64,000 nt of DNA, from positions 1 through 64,000 of the forward strand of contig CAMWTJ010000008.1 of NCBI GenBank assembly GCA_947177185.1, read 5' to 3'. Both the position numbers and the translations under genes were made by a program. The notes under the pieces were generated by a model. It had not been told where the DNA came from, made no database searches, and saw nothing but the letters and a program-made list of their open reading frames with translations. This DNA is from an uncultured Porphyromonadaceae bacterium. GTDB lineage: Bacteria; Bacteroidota; Bacteroidia; Bacteroidales; Muribaculaceae. This document shows, in pieces, positions 51,108 to 63,985 of the stretch. How positions within the stretch are numbered: the first letter of the stretch is position 1; every line of letters begins with the position of its first letter.

Positions 51108-51671
51108 ATGCCATCCACTAATTTCAACACATATTATGATAATATCGACCATGATTTCTGGAAGAAACTGTGTGTCGAGCAGGGCATATTGCGAAATTAC
51201 AATCCGGGTGACTTTTTTATCGAGCACGGTCAGGTTGGACGATATATCGGCTATATCAAGACGGGCACATTAAAATATGTGGCTTATACTGCTGATGGAA
51301 CCGAGTCTGTGGTCGGCTTGGAGTTCGCGGGTGAATTTGTCGCTGATTTTCCGTTCTCCCTCTATGGACAGAAATCCCGTATTTCGATTATCGCCGTAAC
51401 TCCCTGCGAAATATACTGTGTATCGGCAAGAGAGATAAGCATGCGTTTGAAATCGGATGAAGAATTGTATCGGATTGTTGCCGAAACAAATGTGGCACTT
51501 TTCGACACCACCTACAACCGCTATATCGATCTGCATGTAAAATCGGCGCAGGAGCGGTACAATGAACTCATTGAAAAATACAGCGACATATTTTCATATT
51601 TCTCTCTCAAAGATATCGCCTCATTCCTTAATATCACACCCACTCATTTGAGCAGACTAAGAAAACTTTAA
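51108..51671 (+). CDS. Crp/Fnr family transcriptional regulator
   Basis: A 187-residue regulator with an N-terminal cyclic-nucleotide-binding-like domain (YNPGDFFIEHGQVGRYIGYIKTGTLKYVAY, about 31-60) and a C-terminal winged helix with LKDIASFLNITPTHLSRLRK as recognition helix. It lacks the cysteines of Fnr and any obvious cAMP-contact Arg/Ser pair, so the signal is unknown. A perfect palindrome lies between it and the next gene, a receptor; the receptor is a likely target. Confidence 0.85.
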   Translation: MPSTNFNTYYDNIDHDFWKKLCVEQGILRNYNPGDFFIEHGQVGRYIGYIKTGTLKYVAYTADGTESVVGLEFAGEFVADFPFSLYGQKSRISIIAVTPCEIYCVSAREISMRLKSDEELYRIVAETNVALFDTTYNRYIDLHVKSAQERYNELIEKYSDIFSYFSLKDIASFLNITPTHLSRLRKL

Positions 51672-51754: not shown

Positions 51755-53593
51755 ATGAGTAATCGACTGAAGTTATTGGTACTAACCTTGTTATTTGCCT
51801 GGGGCGCAATAGCACAACCTGCCGGACAGGATTCTATAAAGACTCAAGAATTGAACGAAGTGGTTGTAGAAGCGAAATTGCAATCCACCTCAGCTACAGT
51901 ATCTACATATATCCCTACGAAACGCCAACGCAATGCCGCACAAAACGGTCCTGAACTGCTCAACCACATGGCTATACCGCAGCTCGGACTGGTGTCGGGG
52001 CATAATGTAACCACCAATTCAGGACAGAAGGTGGACCTTTACATTGACTATGTGCCGGCATCGGAACAGGATCTTAACGGTATGCGCATGGCCGATGTGA
52101 AGAAAGTGGAATATTACGATTTTCCCACCGACCCGCGTTTTCAAGGCTCGCAGCACGTGGTTAATTTCATAATGCAGAAATATGAATATGGCGGATATGT
52201 GAAAGCATACGCAAACGAATTCTTCATTGCCAACTCAGGTCAGCTCAACCTCTTCTCCAAACTCCAGTTTAAGCGTATGACCTTCGACATAGGCGTCGGC
52301 GGATGGTATTCGGCCAATGACCATATGAGTCAGTCTACAATAGAAACATATCGGTTGCCACAGACCGACGGTTCTGTAAAGACCTTCGAACGAATATCAG
52401 AGCCCGACTATGCCAAAGTGCGTCATCAATCCTATTGGCCTACTTTCAAGGCGACGTATCTTACTGACAAGATAACTATGGTGAACACTTTGGGCGCTAA
52501 TTTCTTCCGTTCGCCCAAGCAGAATACAGCCGGAACGGTACGCTTTTCTCCGGCCGATTTCCCCACGACAGAATATAGCGACGAGCAGAACAGCATCACC
52601 AACTCAATTACCTATTCGGGCTTCTGGAACTTTATCCTGCCACATGGCAATAGCCTTAGCTTCAATCCATATTACTCTTATTCGCATACCAATCAGCATA
52701 GACTGTATTCAGAGACTTCAGGCTCAACCTTCGCGAACGGCGCGAAAGATGATTCGCACCGTGCCACTGCATCATTGCGCTTCGTGCACGATTTCGGTAA
52801 GTCAGGAAAAATCACAGCCATTGTCAACGGAACGCTTCTCTCCAATCGCACCAACTATTCGGGCACATCGACCGCTACCGACCGCCTTACCACTTATCGC
52901 GTGGGGCCCGGATTGTTTTATAATTACAACACCGGCAAATTCAATGGTCTGATTGGCGGCGGCTTCAACTACGACCACTCCACATTGGCTTCTGAATCGG
53001 AGCACTCCACACAGCCGTGGGCTGATTTATCTCTCCAGTATGCTTTTAACAATAAAAATTCCATAAGCGCAGAATTTCACCATGCCACATGGACTCTGGC
53101 GTCATCGTATCGCAGCACGGCCATAATTCAGGCCAACCCGTTGTTCCGTTATACCGGCAACCCCGATGTGACTCCATATAAAAGCTGGGATGCAAGCCTC
53201 CGATATGTGTTCATGCCCAACAACAAGTTCAATTTCGCCGCTTTCGGTCAGACTACCGTAATCACCGACCGATACGCTTACGTCTACAAAGCATCGCCCG
53301 ATGGGATTCTCCGCACCATACAGCAAAAGGGAGTAGGCAATTACCTCTCATGGTTATACGGAGTGCAGGGCACGGCAAGGCTGCTTGACAACAGATTGAT
53401 GGTCAACGGACAGGTGGCTCACCGCATAGTTCGTAACGGTGTGCCTTTCAACTGGACGAAACAACGTGTCCTTTGGTATCTTCAGGCGTTTTATTATGTC
53501 GGTGGCTGGAATTTCGGACTGCAATACCAGTCGCCTCAGGAGTATTGCGACGGATATGTATGGGCCACAAAACGAAGCGTGCAAAGTGTGTGA
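51755..53593 (+). CDS. TonB-dependent receptor-like outer-membrane barrel, truncated by the prophage
   Basis: The 612-residue frame has a signal peptide (about 1-21), a plug-like domain (about 32-145 with LNEVVVEA and VKKVEYYDFP) and a long barrel with many aromatic strands. It ends in SVQSV instead of the barrel-terminal aromatic residue, and similar receptors are usually around 690 residues or longer. The reading frame enters the putative Mu-like left end at about 53557, so roughly the last 11 residues are phage sequence and the last strands of the barrel are missing. The gene is therefore probably non-functional in this strain. Confidence 0.75.
   Translation: MSNRLKLLVLTLLFAWGAIAQPAGQDSIKTQELNEVVVEAKLQSTSATVSTYIPTKRQRNAAQNGPELLNHMAIPQLGLVSGHNVTTNSGQKVDLYIDYVPASEQDLNGMRMADVKKVEYYDFPTDPRFQGSQHVVNFIMQKYEYGGYVKAYANEFFIANSGQLNLFSKLQFKRMTFDIGVGGWYSANDHMSQSTIETYRLPQTDGSVKTFERISEPDYAKVRHQSYWPTFKATYLTDKITMVNTLGANFFRSPKQNTAGTVRFSPADFPTTEYSDEQNSITNSITYSGFWNFILPHGNSLSFNPYYSYSHTNQHRLYSETSGSTFANGAKDDSHRATASLRFVHDFGKSGKITAIVNGTLLSNRTNYSGTSTATDRLTTYRVGPGLFYNYNTGKFNGLIGGGFNYDHSTLASESEHSTQPWADLSLQYAFNNKNSISAEFHHATWTLASSYRSTAIIQANPLFRYTGNPDVTPYKSWDASLRYVFMPNNKFNFAAFGQTTVITDRYAYVYKASPDGILRTIQQKGVGNYLSWLYGVQGTARLLDNRLMVNGQVAHRIVRNGVPFNWTKQRVLWYLQAFYYVGGWNFGLQYQSPQEYCDGYVWATKRSVQSV
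53569..53585 (+). repeat. Left-end transposase-binding-site-like repeat, copy 1 (L1-like)
   Basis: AAAACGAAGCGTGCAAA, preceded by GGGCC, about 12 bases from the presumed terminal TG. The same 17 bases recur 92 bases downstream. The core CGAAGCGTGCAAA resembles the Mu end-site consensus (GAAGCGCGAAA-like). Confidence 0.6.
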
Positions 53594-53660
53594 TGCTGAT
53601 TTTGGGTGAAATGCTTTTGATGTCAGTTAGTTAGGTGGAGTAGGGGAGTGGGGCCGAAAT

Positions 53661-53677
53661 AAAACGAAGCGTGCAAA
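53661..53677 (+). repeat. Left-end transposase-binding-site-like repeat, copy 2 (L2-like)
   Basis: Second exact copy of AAAACGAAGCGTGCAAA, again preceded by GGGCC (with a 5-base rather than 2-base gap), 92 bases from copy 1. Mu L1 and L2 are about 105 bases apart. Confidence 0.6.
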
Positions 53678-53680
53678 AAG

Positions 53681-53774
53681 TTTACATGGGCTTAATTTGG
53701 GTTTACATGGACGGCTCGTTTTGATGCCGCAGGTTTACATGGAATTTGCATGAGCTTATCGGGGGATTTACATA
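53681..53774 (+). repeat. Four TTTACAT direct repeats
   Basis: TTTACATGG occurs at 53681-53689, 53702-53710 and 53734-53742, and a diverged copy TTTACATA at 53767-53774. Spacings are 21, 32 and 33 bases, two and three helical turns. They directly follow the L2-like repeat and may be further protein-binding sites. Confidence 0.6.
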
Positions 53775-53894
53775 CCCCATGAAGTCGTTCGTCGGAGCGA
53801 TAGAGGGTAGGGCGGTCGCAATTGTGAGCCGCTTTTTTATGTACCGCTGAAAAATTTATCATTATTAAAAATATACCATATAGATATTATTTGG

Positions 53895-53922: not shown

Positions 53923-54168
53923 ATGGCAAAGGTTATACATGTTCATCTAACACAACCCATTGAGGGAACGAAGCGCAAGGACTGGTATTTCAGCAGTATA
54001 AAGGCCATTTTCAGTGTGTTTGCAGCGGATCAGGTTGGTGCGACCTACAACTACCTACGCCATGCAGGGCTGACAGGGAATGGCACAGTCGTCACTAAAC
54101 GCGCTATAATCAAGCAGTCTACGCTCATATCGGGCGGAGGTGGCGCAGACTATAAGGATGGCGTTTGA
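53923..54168 (+). CDS. 81-aa protein of unknown function at the prophage left end
   Basis: A small protein (MAKVIHVHLTQPIEG..., then DWYFSSIKAIFSVFAADQVGATYNYLRHAGLTG...) with a mixed alpha/beta pattern and a Gly-rich tail. It has its own promoter and sits outside the repressor, between the transposase-binding-like repeats and the repressor, where Mu carries no gene. No family is recognised. It may be a lysogenically expressed cargo gene, because it lies beyond the repressor and has an independent promoter; this is inference. Confidence 0.55.
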   Translation: MAKVIHVHLTQPIEGTKRKDWYFSSIKAIFSVFAADQVGATYNYLRHAGLTGNGTVVTKRAIIKQSTLISGGGGADYKDGV

Positions 54169-54623: not shown

Positions 54624-55061
54624 TCAGGTCGGCACAGTTTCCGAAGTATGGGCATACTGGGGGGAAGCATGCACCCGGGCATTTCGCTCCAACTCTTCTA
54701 TGCGTGCTTTTAGCATTCCTATTTCTTGGTTTAGTCGCCCAATTTCTTGGTCCTTGTCTTTTATGTAAGCCCAAACGTCGGCTTGTTGGTGAGTGTCTGG
54801 TGGTTGAATGTTGGTGTTTGCATCGGTGCTTTCTGTTGGATTGGAAAGTAGCATATTCCCTTTTCCTAACAATAGCCATGTAGGGTTGAGGTCGGGGTAT
54901 ATTTCGATAATTTTCGACACCCATTGGCTTGAAATATCAGTTCCCTTGCTTATACTACGCGAAATAACTCCATTAGAGCACCCTATCTGCTGCTCTAATG
55001 CTCTGATGCTAATCCCTTTTTCATTGAGAAAGGCCGCGAGGTTGTCGGAAAAGTTCGCCAT
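54624..55061 (-). CDS. Phage repressor with HTH and coiled coil
   Basis: A 145-residue protein pointing left. The N-terminus is a helix-turn-helix (ISIRALEQQIGCSNGVISRSISKG, about 17-40) followed by SSQWVSKIIEIYPDLNPTWLLLGKG, a pattern common to CI-like regulators in Bacteroidetes phages. The C-terminal part (about 95-125, IKDKDQEIGRLNQEIGMLKARIEELERNA) is a heptad coiled coil for oligomerisation. There is no LexA-type protease domain, as in Mu repressor. Divergent orientation to the early operon with operator-like repeats supports the lysogeny-repressor role. Confidence 0.82.
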   Translation of the reverse strand: MANFSDNLAAFLNEKGISIRALEQQIGCSNGVISRSISKGTDISSQWVSKIIEIYPDLNPTWLLLGKGNMLLSNPTESTDANTNIQPPDTHQQADVWAYIKDKDQEIGRLNQEIGMLKARIEELERNARVHASPQYAHTSETVPT

Positions 55062-57082: not shown

Positions 57083-57093
57083 CCCTTGTGACA

Positions 57094-59112
57094 ATGGAAT
57101 ACTACGACGGACGGAAATGTATCAGGCCAAGCGAACTCGAAGCGGCCGGCATAATGACGCAGGAATACTGCCGTCAGCTTGCCTCGCGCAAGAGGATTGA
57201 GATGGCTCGCTCCGGCAGAGGCAAAGGCAACTATGCCCTCGTCGTGGTCGAGTCACTGCCGACGCAGTATCTTGAAGAGGTTAAGGAAAAACTGGGTAGC
57301 GGCGACGAAATTCTTGCCGCCGGGTGGTTCTGCGAGAACTACGAGCGCGATCAGAAAGCCGTGATATGGTTCAACGACCGTCAGAAATGCCCCATCGAAT
57401 TCAAGGACGAAAAGAAGCGTCGTCAATGGGTGGAAGAGTGCGTGGTCAACGCCAGTGTCCTCAACTGCTGTATCCGGCTTTACAGCCGGGCAAGCGATTT
57501 TCAGCGGATACTTGGCAATACCTACCAGTGGGAGAAAATGGCAAAGGCTGTCGAAAGTCTGCGGGAGCAGTTCGGCCATACGCTGCCGACCTCGATGTTC
57601 CGCTTCCGCAAGAAGGTGGCCGAATACAAGCGCGACGGGTATGCCAGTCTGATCAGCGGCAAGTTCGGCAACCAGGCGGCGCGCCGGATGACCCACCGCG
57701 AAGAGCGCGTCATACTCGGCATAGCCTGTCTTGAGAATCAGCCCTACAACACCACAGTCCGGGAAATGTATATAATGTTCCTCACGGGCGAGCTTGACGT
57801 TTACGACATCGATACCGGCGAGCTCTACGACCCCGAAACTTTCGCAAAGAAAGGCGAGGACCCGTGGATTCCAAGTGATGCTACCATCGCCAACTACCTC
57901 AACAAACCCAAAAACAAGCTGCTGATAGAGAACCGTCATCGGAGCCGTACCGCCTTCATGCACGAGCAGATGCCCCACATGCACCGCCACAACGGCCAGT
58001 TCTCCCTGTCACAGATTACGATGGACGACGTTGACCTTCCGCGTCGTATGAGAGGCAACGAGCGGGTACATGCCTACTACGCCTACGACGTGGTGAGCCA
58101 GTGCCGAATCGGGGCCGCCTACGCCCGGAAGAAGGACGAAGACCTTGTGGTGGAATGCTTCCGCGACATGTTCCGGCTGATCGAGCGCAATGGGTGGGGC
58201 ATGCCGGCCGGCATCGAGGTCGAGCAGCACCTCATGAGCCACTACAAGGACGGCTTTTTACGAGCCGGTGTCGCCTTTCCCTTCGTACACTTCTGCGCGC
58301 CACAAAACTCACAGGAAAAGTACGCCGAGCCTCTGAATGGTGCTTTCAAGCGGTCGATAGCCCACAAGAACCATGCAGGAACAGGAAGGTTCTACGGCAA
58401 AGGCAAGAACCGCACCGAGAGCAAAAAGATCAGCGACGAGACCAACGACACATGGGAAGATAAGAGATACTACACCTTCGAGGAACTTGTGGCCGATGAC
58501 CGTGCCGACAACATGGAGTGGAACAACACCCTGCATCCGAACCAAAAGAAATACCCCGGCATGACCCGATGGGACGTGCTTGCGGCAAACATCAACCCGA
58601 CACTGCAGCCCCTCGATAAGTTGACCTTGAGCCGGTATATAGGTGAGAGGGTGCCGACGAGCATTCGGCGCAACTCTACCGTTAGGGTTTGCCACGAGGA
58701 CTGGTGGTTGAGCGCCCCGGAGATACTTGAGAAGCTCGAACCGAACAACTACAAGGTCACGGCCTACTATCTGCCTGACGAGAGCGGTGCCCCCACCGAG
58801 GTCTACATATTCCAGGATGACCGCTACATCGACAGGGTGGAGAAAGTGCAGACCTATAACCGCGTCATGGCAGAGCAGACGGAGGAAGATGTTGCCAATT
58901 ATATCGAGCAGCGCAAAAAGGTTGCCAAATTCGAGGCATACGTGCGCGACAACGCCGCCCCGCGCATCGGAACGGTAAAACCCACGGTCGCCTCTGAAAT
59001 TGCGGCAGAGGCCGTAGAAATGCCTTCGTCGGCGATTGCTCCGGAAGAAGATGACACGGTGTCAAGATTCGCAGACATGGACTGGGGTCAGGTCGGATTT
59101 TATGACTCTTAA
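57094..59112 (+). CDS. Mu-like DDE transposase (MuA family, Bacteroidetes type)
   Basis: A 672-residue transposase. N-terminal DNA-binding segment (about 1-200), a catalytic rve-like core (ITMDDVDLPRR with the first acidic residues near 311-312, YAYDVVSQCR, then GIEVEQHLMSHYKD near 373-386, and QEKYAEPLNGAFKR with Glu near 412), and a C-terminal domain after about 470. The second catalytic acid appears to be Glu instead of Asp. It would carry out strand transfer for replicative transposition. The GTG at 57088 is an alternative start. Followed by MuB-like ATPase, as in Mu. Confidence 0.9.
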   Translation: MEYYDGRKCIRPSELEAAGIMTQEYCRQLASRKRIEMARSGRGKGNYALVVVESLPTQYLEEVKEKLGSGDEILAAGWFCENYERDQKAVIWFNDRQKCPIEFKDEKKRRQWVEECVVNASVLNCCIRLYSRASDFQRILGNTYQWEKMAKAVESLREQFGHTLPTSMFRFRKKVAEYKRDGYASLISGKFGNQAARRMTHREERVILGIACLENQPYNTTVREMYIMFLTGELDVYDIDTGELYDPETFAKKGEDPWIPSDATIANYLNKPKNKLLIENRHRSRTAFMHEQMPHMHRHNGQFSLSQITMDDVDLPRRMRGNERVHAYYAYDVVSQCRIGAAYARKKDEDLVVECFRDMFRLIERNGWGMPAGIEVEQHLMSHYKDGFLRAGVAFPFVHFCAPQNSQEKYAEPLNGAFKRSIAHKNHAGTGRFYGKGKNRTESKKISDETNDTWEDKRYYTFEELVADDRADNMEWNNTLHPNQKKYPGMTRWDVLAANINPTLQPLDKLTLSRYIGERVPTSIRRNSTVRVCHEDWWLSAPEILEKLEPNNYKVTAYYLPDESGAPTEVYIFQDDRYIDRVEKVQTYNRVMAEQTEEDVANYIEQRKKVAKFEAYVRDNAAPRIGTVKPTVASEIAAEAVEMPSSAIAPEEDDTVSRFADMDWGQVGFYDS

Positions 59113-59137: not shown

Positions 59138-60010
59138 ATGATTACAACCGAAATCAAACAAAAAATCACCGCTGCGATCACGTCGGCCAGGAAGAACTAT
59201 CCGAGCGACGCCAAGCATGCCGCCTCGCTCGGCATCACCACATCGGTTTACAGTGCGGTCAAGAAGGGCCAGACCGACCGGGTGCTGAGTGATGCCAACT
59301 GGATAAGCATTGCCCGCAAGCTCGGCGTCAACCTCCGCGACGAAATTGAATGGAAGGCTGCCAAAACCCCGGTATTCCAGTACGTCACCGCGCAGCTTGA
59401 GTTCTGTCAGCAGTCGAGCGTCAGCGGCATACTCTGCGATGAACCTAATATCGGCAAGACCTTCACCGCCCGGCTCTATGTTCAGAGCCACCGCAATGCC
59501 GTCTACATTGACTGCTCCCAGGTCAAGACCAAGCTGAAGCTCATTCGTAAGATTGCAGCCGAATTTGGTGTCGACAGCAAAGGCCGGTACAGCGATGTAT
59601 ACGATGACCTCGTGTTTTACCTCCGCTCCATCGAGCAGCCCCTCATCATACTTGACGAGGCAGGCGACCTCCAGTACGAGGCCTTCCTTGAGCTGAAAGC
59701 ATTGTGGAATGCCACCGAGCGCTGCTGCGCATGGTACATGATGGGAGCCGACGGCCTCAAGGAGAAGATCAACCGCTCAATCGAGTGCAGGAAGGTCGGC
59801 TATACCGAGATGCTGAGCCGCTACGGCGACCGCTTCAGCAAGGTCACGCCCGACAACGGCGACGACCGCAGGGCTTTTCTGAATGAACAGGCCCGGATAG
59901 TGGCGAAAGTCAACGCCCCGGAGGGCGCCGATATAGCACAGATCGTTCGCAAGACCCAGGGTGGTCTGCGCCGTGTATATACCGAAATCGAAAAACTAAA
60001 AAGACAGTAA
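59138..60010 (+). CDS. MuB-like AAA ATPase, transposition target-selection protein
   Basis: A 290-residue protein with an N-terminal HTH-like region (HAASLGITTSVYSAVKKGQ), a P-loop DEPNIGKTFTA (about 109-119) and Walker B LIILDEAGD (about 168-176), the pattern of MuB/TniB/ExeA-type ATPases. It delivers target DNA to the transposase and gives target immunity in Mu. Starts 25 bases after the transposase stop. Confidence 0.88.
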   Translation: MITTEIKQKITAAITSARKNYPSDAKHAASLGITTSVYSAVKKGQTDRVLSDANWISIARKLGVNLRDEIEWKAAKTPVFQYVTAQLEFCQQSSVSGILCDEPNIGKTFTARLYVQSHRNAVYIDCSQVKTKLKLIRKIAAEFGVDSKGRYSDVYDDLVFYLRSIEQPLIILDEAGDLQYEAFLELKALWNATERCCAWYMMGADGLKEKINRSIECRKVGYTEMLSRYGDRFSKVTPDNGDDRRAFLNEQARIVAKVNAPEGADIAQIVRKTQGGLRRVYTEIEKLKRQ

Positions 60011-61625: not shown

Positions 61626-61799
61626 ATGAAAAAACGCCATTGGAAAATCAAACTCAAGGAACGCACTACCGGGCAGATCCTCACCCCCGAATACATCGGC
61701 TACAAAGACCGCGAAAAGGTGATAGAGTTCTTCGGACTCGAGAACCAGGATGTCGAATGGTACGAGATAGAGGAAGTGCCCTGCAAAGAAAACGATTAA
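61626..61799 (+). CDS. Small phage protein (57 aa)
   Basis: A 57-residue protein: MKKRHWKIKLKERTTG, then ILTPEYIGYKDREKVIEFFG and an acidic tail. It was too short to be listed as a long frame but is tightly packed (7 bases after the previous stop, 23 before DUF3164). The alternating charged and hydrophobic pattern suggests a small alpha/beta fold. Function unknown. Confidence 0.5.
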   Translation: MKKRHWKIKLKERTTGQILTPEYIGYKDREKVIEFFGLENQDVEWYEIEEVPCKEND

Positions 61800-61822
61800 C
61801 CAACCATCTAAAAATAAGTGAT

Positions 61823-62479
61823 ATGACAGAACAAGTTGAAATGACAGCCGAAGAGCGTCAGGAATTCGAGGCTTACAGAGCCGAAAAAGAAAAAAAGCGT
61901 CGTGAGCAGGAACGCAAAGAGCAGCGCAAGCAGTACGCCGACATGGTGGATGACGAAATATCCACCACGATCCCTCAGCTCCGCGAACTGAGCGACCAGA
62001 TCAAACTGGTCAAGGAAACTATCTTTGGCAACTTCGAGACAATCCTCAAGATGAAGTCCGAGATTACCGGCGTTGCCCGTGACAATCAGAACAGCCACAC
62101 GTTCACCAATTCCGACAGCACCCTGCGCGTCATCCTTGGGGTGAACACCATCGACGGTTACCGCGACACTGTCGAGGATGGCATAGCAATGGTAAAGGGC
62201 TACATCGAGAGCCTGGCCAAAGACGATGCCACCAAGGCTCTCGTTAATGCCGTGCTCCGCCTTTTGAGCCGTGACGGGCAGGGCAACATAAAGGCCAGCC
62301 GAGTGCTTCAGCTTCGCAAAATGGCAGAGGATAGTGGCAACGAGCAGTTCCTCGAGGGTGTGAAAATCATCGAGGAGGCTTACCAGCCCACCATCTCCAA
62401 AAAGTTCATCCGTGCCCAGTACAAGAATGACAAGGGCGCATGGTGTTATATACCCCTCGGCATGACAGATGTCGACTAA
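61823..62479 (+). CDS. DUF3164 family protein
   Basis: A 218-residue protein matching DUF3164: a highly charged, coiled-coil-prone N-terminus (EERQEFEAYRAEKEKKRREQERKEQRKQYADM) and a conserved C-terminal domain with GVNTIDGYRDTVEDGIAMVKGYIESL. DUF3164 proteins are characteristic of Mu-like phages and are often called sulfate-transporter-like by mistake. Function unknown. The ATG at 61823 was chosen; the longer frame lies over the previous gene. Confidence 0.82.
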   Translation: MTEQVEMTAEERQEFEAYRAEKEKKRREQERKEQRKQYADMVDDEISTTIPQLRELSDQIKLVKETIFGNFETILKMKSEITGVARDNQNSHTFTNSDSTLRVILGVNTIDGYRDTVEDGIAMVKGYIESLAKDDATKALVNAVLRLLSRDGQGNIKASRVLQLRKMAEDSGNEQFLEGVKIIEEAYQPTISKKFIRAQYKNDKGAWCYIPLGMTDVD

Positions 62480-62695: not shown

Positions 62696-62962
62696 ATGGC
62701 AAACAAGCGCGGCATGTCCTACAGAAAGCGCGTAGAAGATATAAACCGGATATATGACCAACACGCCAAAAGCGGGTTGACTAACCGGGAGATATGGCGG
62801 AGGTACATATATCCGGTTTATTGGATCAGCGAGCGCACTTTCTACAACATCATGAACGCCACGGCAGGGCTTGAAAACCCGGTCGTGGCGTCCGACGTGC
62901 CAGGCCTTTTTGATTTTATCGACGAAAATCCCGAAACAGACAACCCTAATGAGCGAACTTGA
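62696..62962 (+). CDS. Possible HTH regulator of phage (88 aa)
   Basis: An 88-residue protein with helices RVEDINRIYDQHAKSG, TNREIWRRYIYPVYW and SERTFYNIMNATAG, a helix-turn-helix-like arrangement. It sits at the border between early genes and morphogenesis genes, where Mu has the Mor/C middle and late activators, so an activator role is an attractive but unproven idea. Overlaps the next gene by 14 bases. Confidence 0.55.
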   Translation: MANKRGMSYRKRVEDINRIYDQHAKSGLTNREIWRRYIYPVYWISERTFYNIMNATAGLENPVVASDVPGLFDFIDENPETDNPNERT

Positions 62963-63512
62963 CCAACAGACTCGTGCTGTCTTCAGAAGCATATTGCGCG
63001 ACATACAGGTCGAGCTTGGAGATGAGTTCGACCAAAACTTCGAGCGGCAGGCATTCTTCAGTCAGGCATGGGCGCGGCGCAAGAGTCCGACGCGCCCTGG
63101 TGGTCTGATACTGGTTGATTCCGGTGGCTTGAGACAGAGTGTCCGCAGTGAAATCCGCGAAAGCAGTATCGTATTTCTGTCAGACCATCCGGGAGCTGCC
63201 ATTCACAACGAAGGTGGCGAAATCAAAGTGACGGCCAGAATGAAGCGTTACTTCTGGCACAAATATTATTCCGCTACCGGCTCCTTCGGCCGCCGAAAAG
63301 ACGGCTCCCTCCGGCAAAACAAAAAGAATAGCCAACTATCCTCCGAAGCCGATTTCTGGAAAGCGATGGCACTCATGAAGGTCGGAAGTACCATCAAGAT
63401 ACCGCAGCGCAAATTCCTCGGCACGTCGCCGGAAGTAGAAACAGCAGTCAGGCAGATCATCGAGGAGAATCTTAACGAGTACATCAACAATATAGACTTC
63501 AATATAAGATGA
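62949..63512 (+). CDS. Phage virion morphogenesis protein (Mu gpG-like)
   Basis: A 187-residue protein of the Mu gpG/phage virion morphogenesis family. Features: LVDSGGLRQSVRSEI (the conserved LxxSGxLxxS segment), HNEGGEIKVTARMKRYFW, and a C-terminal region with PQRKFLGTSPEV (the conserved PxRxFLG). In Mu, gpG is needed for tail attachment or head completion. The ATG at 62949 gives the family start; the next gene overlaps by ATGA. Confidence 0.85.
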   Translation: MSELDQQTRAVFRSILRDIQVELGDEFDQNFERQAFFSQAWARRKSPTRPGGLILVDSGGLRQSVRSEIRESSIVFLSDHPGAAIHNEGGEIKVTARMKRYFWHKYYSATGSFGRRKDGSLRQNKKNSQLSSEADFWKAMALMKVGSTIKIPQRKFLGTSPEVETAVRQIIEENLNEYINNIDFNIR

Positions 63513-63985
63513 GAGAAGAATTATACCGCAAACTTAAAACCCGGCTTGAGGCAATGTGTATCAATGCCGCCGGAGAGTATTATGAACGCCCGGACGAAGC
63601 AGACATGAATGACGAACTGTATCCCCGTGCGATCAAACACATCGACCTATGGAACCATAATGTAGAGTTCCTCGAGCAGGAGGCTCCGTGGCCACGCCCG
63701 GCAGTGTTCATCGAATTTGTGCCCTTTAAGTGGCATGCCGTCGTGCCCGGAGTCGAATACCGGGCGCAGCCACTGATCAACCTCCATGTGGTGACCGACT
63801 GGGCGGAACAGAAAAACATCGGCGAGTTCCGGCTGCTTGACAAGATCCATGAGCAGCTTGCCGGACTGGAAGGCGAGAACTTCATGGAGTTCGACATCGA
63901 CAGCTCCGCCACCAACCATAATCACGAGGATATTGTCGAGAACATAGAAACCTATACTTGCGTCGGGTTCCGTCATCTGAAATAA
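63509..63985 (+). CDS. Probable phage tail-completion or minor tail protein (158 aa)
   Basis: A 158-residue protein with a pattern seen in phage tail-terminator/minor tail (gp37-like) proteins: an N-terminal helix, PRPAVFIEFVPFKW, PLINLHVVTDWAE, FRLLDKIHEQLAGLE, then a C-terminal VENIETYTCVGF strand. It directly follows the gpG-like gene, with an ATGA overlap, as in other Mu-like phage tail modules. Family assignment rests on pattern and context. Confidence 0.65.
   Translation: MREELYRKLKTRLEAMCINAAGEYYERPDEADMNDELYPRAIKHIDLWNHNVEFLEQEAPWPRPAVFIEFVPFKWHAVVPGVEYRAQPLINLHVVTDWAEQKNIGEFRLLDKIHEQLAGLEGENFMEFDIDSSATNHNHEDIVENIETYTCVGFRHLK

Follow-up and report, generated by a model that had tools for sequence, protein, structure and literature searches.

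The window, by which we mean the whole stretch of 64,000 nucleotides that was analysed, comes from an uncultured Porphyromonadaceae bacterium (assembly GCA_947177185.1, contig CAMWTJ010000008.1, here C8). It contains the 5' part of an outer-membrane receptor-like gene (51755..53558, plus strand), whose native sequence runs through 601 complete codons and one base into codon 602; the open frame itself (51755-53593, 612 aa) reads beyond 53558 through phage DNA to a stop at 53593. The gene was called a receptor on the basis of a signal-peptide-like start and of plug-like and barrel-like features that resemble those of TonB-dependent receptors; searches of Pfam, NCBIfam and the PDB gave no significant match for its family. 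Its upstream neighbour is an intact gene for a Crp/Fnr-type regulator of 187 aa (51108..51671, plus strand; Pfam cNMP_binding, E 8.6e-12). A preliminary description of this DNA had suggested that the regulator may have lost its target when the receptor gene was disrupted. We find little support for this idea: among 19 loci from other genomes, a single one (L018, 86% identical) has the Crp/Fnr gene next to the receptor homologue, a count that covers about 1.5 kb upstream for most loci and less for L019 and L022.

The end of the frame holds the elements on which that description was built, namely the string TGTATGGGCC (53557-53566) and an exact 17-mer, AAAACGAAGCGTGCAAA, at 53569-53585 and again 92 bp downstream at 53661-53677 (both on the plus strand, designated L1 and L2), each with GGGCC upstream (53562-53566, ending 2 bp before the first copy, and 53651-53655, ending 5 bp before the second). 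The pair is the sole exact 17-mer that recurs at 17-200 bp within the window, and no such recurrence arose in 100 first-order Markov sequences of equal length. With up to two mismatches allowed, the 17-mer was found in the host assembly only at its two window copies. An inverted, L3-like copy at 53708-53728 was considered and set aside, as it did not look conserved when compared by eye with a few relatives. Directly after L2 comes a helically phased TTTACAT array (53681..53773, plus strand; exact copies at 53681, 53702, 53734 and 53767), followed by a bulged terminator-like hairpin with a T run (53810..53838, plus strand), which reads rightwards, that is inward, and fails a strict terminator test.

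The genes farther inward are those of a Mu-like prophage, as had been proposed. An 81-aa open reading frame (53923..54168, plus strand) is conserved in related prophages, with 60-71% identity in L079, L080, L085 and L091, and a helix-turn-helix repressor-like gene lies near the left end on the minus strand (54624..55061; PHROG transcriptional regulator, E 2e-6). The plus strand then encodes a MuA-like transposase of 674 aa (57088..59112; phrog_310 transposase, E 9.1e-44) and a MuB-like AAA ATPase (59138..60010; phrog_296 DNA transposition protein, E 6.3e-40; Pfam AAA_22), and after these a phage ATPase (60283..60909; phrog_6891, E 1.9e-74), a DUF3164 protein (61640..62479; Pfam, E 4.1e-12), a Phage_tail_S/neck protein (62871..63512; Pfam and PHROG profile matches) and the conserved phage protein phrog_6911 (63509..63985; E 9.1e-28). 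Gene order in L079 and L080 is that of the window prophage along the part compared. Relatives among the genome contigs include Muribaculaceae, which makes a host of that family likely.

Contig C8 extends past the window and ends at 73675, 20,117 bp into the phage. This additional part carries a reverse transcriptase gene (C8:66577-68199, minus strand; phrog_1423, E 7e-106); a search of the 6 kb around it for the template and variable repeats of a diversity-generating retroelement, such as Hankyphage has, found no direct repeat of at least 40 bp. A methyltransferase-like gene and two neighbours (C8:64080-65918) lie on the minus strand in the middle of the phage, likewise in L079 and L080, but the G184, G226 and G152 phages carry the same group close to the right end and in plus orientation.

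Homologues of the receptor-like protein were searched for in 60 other genomes, 36 of them from the same genus, and 29 genomes besides the window's own gave a match. Open frames of these homologues commonly measure about 700 aa, and some exceed 800. Against homologues of about 700 aa, similarity ends at the junction, just before the 17-bp repeat. The two closest relatives (83% and 79% identity) run past this point to about 700 aa, with GTCAACGG where the window has GTATGGGC, and each of the seven longer aligned homologues has about 95 additional residues. Comparison with uninterrupted homologues thus bears out the earlier proposal that the gene is disrupted. We infer that the receptor lost about 95 C-terminal residues, and for that reason its barrel is probably non-functional. 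A search of the rest of the host assembly for the lost C-terminus turned up only a 42% paralogue. The absence of a terminal aromatic residue, which had been put forward as a sign of truncation, is true of the window frame; as an argument it carries no weight, because the seven longer homologues end in ILK, ILQ or ILR and lack such a residue as well.

The exact position of the phage end was sought in related prophages. The 17-mer is present in 13 stretches of viral contigs, five of which have the exact pair 92 bp apart. In nine of the 13 (L030, L033-L035, L037-L041), the terminus TATGGGCC or TATAGGGC is followed by outward divergence, with a single base outside the terminus in L037 and one site common to L038 and L039; as to the others, L029, L031 and L036 are unrelated places and L032 matches at L2. 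A broad pattern applied to viral contigs was too loose, its two-copy filter being passed by 12 of the 80 listed loci. Of 81 loci from the window, viral contigs and genomes, 48 had an end marked by a wider left-end pattern, one of which, L091, was misplaced; its true left end was identified separately, and it is excluded from the 47 correctly placed ends discussed here. In all 47, L2 lies 91-94 bp inward of L1. Forty-six begin with TA and one with TG (L261, on the same contig as L032), a proportion to be read with the knowledge that the pattern was drawn from early examples with at most two changes allowed and favours TA ends. The base before the terminal T varies (G 16, A 15, T 9, C 8 among the 48, misplaced L091 included). 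Near-duplicates are part of the set, which holds 44 distinct flank strings, one of them cut short. The prophages L079 and L080 are 99.1% identical, yet differ at five of their first 12 terminal bases.

As relatives share a TA..GGGC terminus and the preceding base is unconserved, we place the left end of the window prophage at T53559 (5'-TATGGGCCAC..., 53559..53568, plus strand), the point where receptor homology stops. The preliminary description was right to locate the end within codons 600-602, since T53559 falls in codon 602, and was mistaken as to the base, for which it had offered 53557 or 53561. Its comparison of the repeats with the L1/L2 sites of Mu fared well, the same arrangement being conserved when the ends of related prophages are aligned. 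The layout of putative sites in these relatives is L1, then L2 91-94 bp inward, a phased TTTACAT-like array and, often, a terminator.

In the right ends of relatives the repeat recurs in inverted orientation, as two or three copies spaced by about 22 bp; most of these right ends finish in GCGATTATA or GCGGATTATA, and their inverted sites end ..ATTATA or ..ATTTA. Five right ends with no identified left end (L272, L281, L289, L301, L302) were set aside, and the right flank of L279 is the same as that of L085. Elements with TATAATCCGC ends (L046, L053, L060, L064) were at one point taken to be IS21-like, an assignment that we rejected as the same sequence is found at the right ends of related phages. 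Exact 4-bp direct repeats flank 14 of the 15 prophages with both ends paired, a tally that was 13 of 14 by count, the L089/L217 pair (GTAA) having been added by eye; both ends were confirmed on one contig for nine pairs, and the ends of L079 are on different contigs by position. The other repeats are CTAT, CATT, CTTC, TGTA, CGTA, ATGC, ACTG, CGAG, GTAC, AAAA, TTTT, CAAG and CACG. The sole pair with no repeat is G184 copy A, on contig C1, with mismatched flanks AGAG and TATA; that genome has a second copy, and a rearrangement between the two copies is possible. When a 5-bp duplication was tried on nine pairs, the fifth base was excluded in five and ambiguous in four. The 5-bp duplication predicted earlier for this prophage (GGATA or ATGTA) is therefore at odds with the 4 bp seen in 14 of 15 paired relatives, and on the same ground we predict a 4-bp duplication, TATG (53555..53558, plus strand). 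Its right copy was not found in the host assembly, nor was right-end sequence; the right junction, TATG with the rest of the receptor, was likewise not found in the viral contigs searched. The right end of the window prophage is predicted to read ..CGATTATA or ..CGGATTATA, then TATG and the last receptor codons.

Taken together, these data make it very likely that a Mu-like Bacteroidota prophage inserted after base 53558, in codon 602 of the receptor-like gene, in the orientation that sets the phage left end against the 5' portion of the gene. This reading follows from the coincidence of the point where homology stops with a terminus and L1/L2 repeats conserved in the family, and from the occupation of unrelated sites by relatives, nearly always between 4-bp direct repeats when their ends are paired. 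By analogy with Mu, the MuA-like transposase would bind L1, L2 and the inverted right-end sites and pair the ends, then nick them and join them to a target whose strands are cut 4 bp apart, and the MuB-like ATPase may help in the choice of target; repair would then have duplicated TATG.

We have considered whether metagenome misassembly might instead have joined the receptor gene to the left end of a phage that was free or inserted elsewhere. The host assembly is fragmented into 82 contigs, replicative transposition gives rise to many junctions, and the right side of the prophage was not found in the assembly. The join, however, sits exactly on the conserved phage terminus, where an arbitrary misjoin would rarely fall, and we hold misassembly to be highly improbable. 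Even less credible is a Mu-type arrangement, with a 5-bp duplication and a left end at 53557 (TGTATGGGCC) or 53561 (TGGGCC). Mu proper is TG-ended, and its stagger is 5 bp according to the relevant part of PMC3362531. TG does precede T53559 in the window, as it does the corresponding T of L034, L035 and L051, and the terminus of the relative L261 reads TG, but any of the four bases can come before T, and repeats that directly adjoin T measure 4 bp in 14 of 15 pairs. The most implausible reading is that a stop near residue 612 is natural for the receptor and that the repeats are something else: the open frame itself is the only support found for it, whereas seven aligned homologues are about 95 residues longer and the last residues of the frame are encoded by the conserved phage end.

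The 28 host flanks compared show no mutual similarity, matching only themselves. Near-identical phages lie at different sites (L258/L260, 99.93%; L307/L308, 99.92%); the clade therefore moved recently, which suggests an active transposase.

Among 30 left ends, the commonest spacings between TTTACAT-like units are 10-11, 21-22, 32, 42-44, 53-54 and 64-65 bp, with a best period of about 10.75-11 and smaller off-phase peaks at 17, 28 and 37 bp; as the 30 ends are related sequences, these counts are not independent. The heptamer is only mildly frequent in the window as a whole (11 copies on both strands, a number reached by 4 of 100 shuffles). The array is possibly an enhancer or repressor array. 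A strict rightward hairpin-plus-T terminator is present at about 210-340 bp in 18 of the 30 left ends; 50 shuffles averaged 0.06 and never exceeded 1, the opposite strand gave none and a control stretch further inside gave five. In the window, the terminator region folds with z = -1.41, and 19 of 200 shuffles fold as well. The left-end terminator likely shields the prophage from host transcription.

The proposed active-site acids of the window transposase are D313, E379 and E414. At E379, Glu is found in 19 of 19 aligned clade rows and in 78 of 78 readable sequences (the window plus the best 80 of 147 viral loci, 3 of these 81 not being extractable), and no invariant Asp lies between D334 and E414 in the 19 aligned rows. 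Asp occupies this position in Hankyphage p00 and in the transposases of the G184, G226 and G152 phages. Two of three alignment modes paired MuA D269/D336/E392 with D313/E379/E414, and the third paired only the last two acids for the window. A profile comparison with p00 was concordant on E379 and E414, an earlier local one having aligned the N-terminal third only. The transposase profile had no significant match to MuA alone or in the PDB, and narrow literature searches, one of them in full text, turned up no recognisable case of a D-E-E-type transposase among the titles listed. Judged by alignment only, the clade transposase appears to carry Glu at the position of the second catalytic Asp of MuA and Hankyphage. 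If real, this substitution would be an experiment of nature on how strict the requirement for that aspartate is in transposases. It is conceivable, though on balance doubtful, that these prophages form a clade of active Mu-like phages that combine a D-E-E transposase with a left end in which the two transposase sites are coupled to the TTTACAT array, as a built-in transposition enhancer or architectural element, and are followed by a terminator that shields against host transcription.

The element is a Bacteroidota transposable phage of a known kind, distantly related to Hankyphage and to the Porphyromonas transposable phages; the features of such phages that are present in the window are a MuA-like transposase followed by a MuB-like ATPase, and a left terminus that begins with TA and bears L1 and L2. 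Hankyphage p00 (BK010646) shares with it the MuA/MuB-like genes, a repressor near the left end, a reverse transcriptase gene, TA at both deposited ends and a AAAACGAAGCG repeat followed by TTTACAT copies. It differs in its transposase, where the match, of 27.5% identity, covers only 31% of the query. Insertion of Hankyphage and its relatives in Bacteroides and Phocaeicola is described as random, as in the window family, in the parts of PMC6199706 and PMC12135933 that deal with it. The Porphyromonas gingivalis transposable phages ('Alisviridae') likewise have a MuA-like transposase and non-site-specific insertion. In 10 records, their transposases show 23-27% identity along 40-64% of the query, and record BK068096 resembles the window family in having GATTATA at its end and departs from it in a deposited left end that begins CTTTATG, not TA.

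The two groups are also in conflict in print as to the size of the duplication: the pertinent section of PMC6199706 gives the repeats flanking Hankyphage as 5 bp, whereas that of PMC10367356 attributes conserved termini and 4-bp bounding repeats to the Porphyromonas phages. The only p00-like prophage that could be paired here, G341, fits 4 bp (TTTT), its right end being 98% and its left end 77% identical to those of p00. Now that the position of the left end, the length of the duplication and the arrangement of the end are fixed for this gut phage group, insertions can be called to the base. Phage Mu (Muvirus; AF083977) arranges its repressor, transposase and MuB genes in the same order and has, in the passages of PMC3562280 and PMC3362531 devoted to its ends, several transposase sites per end in unequal left and right layouts, as in the window family. 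It starts with TG, unlike the TA-ended family of the window with its terminus TATGGGCC, and its 5-bp stagger, given in the same part of PMC3362531, contrasts with the 4 bp of the paired relatives of the window prophage.
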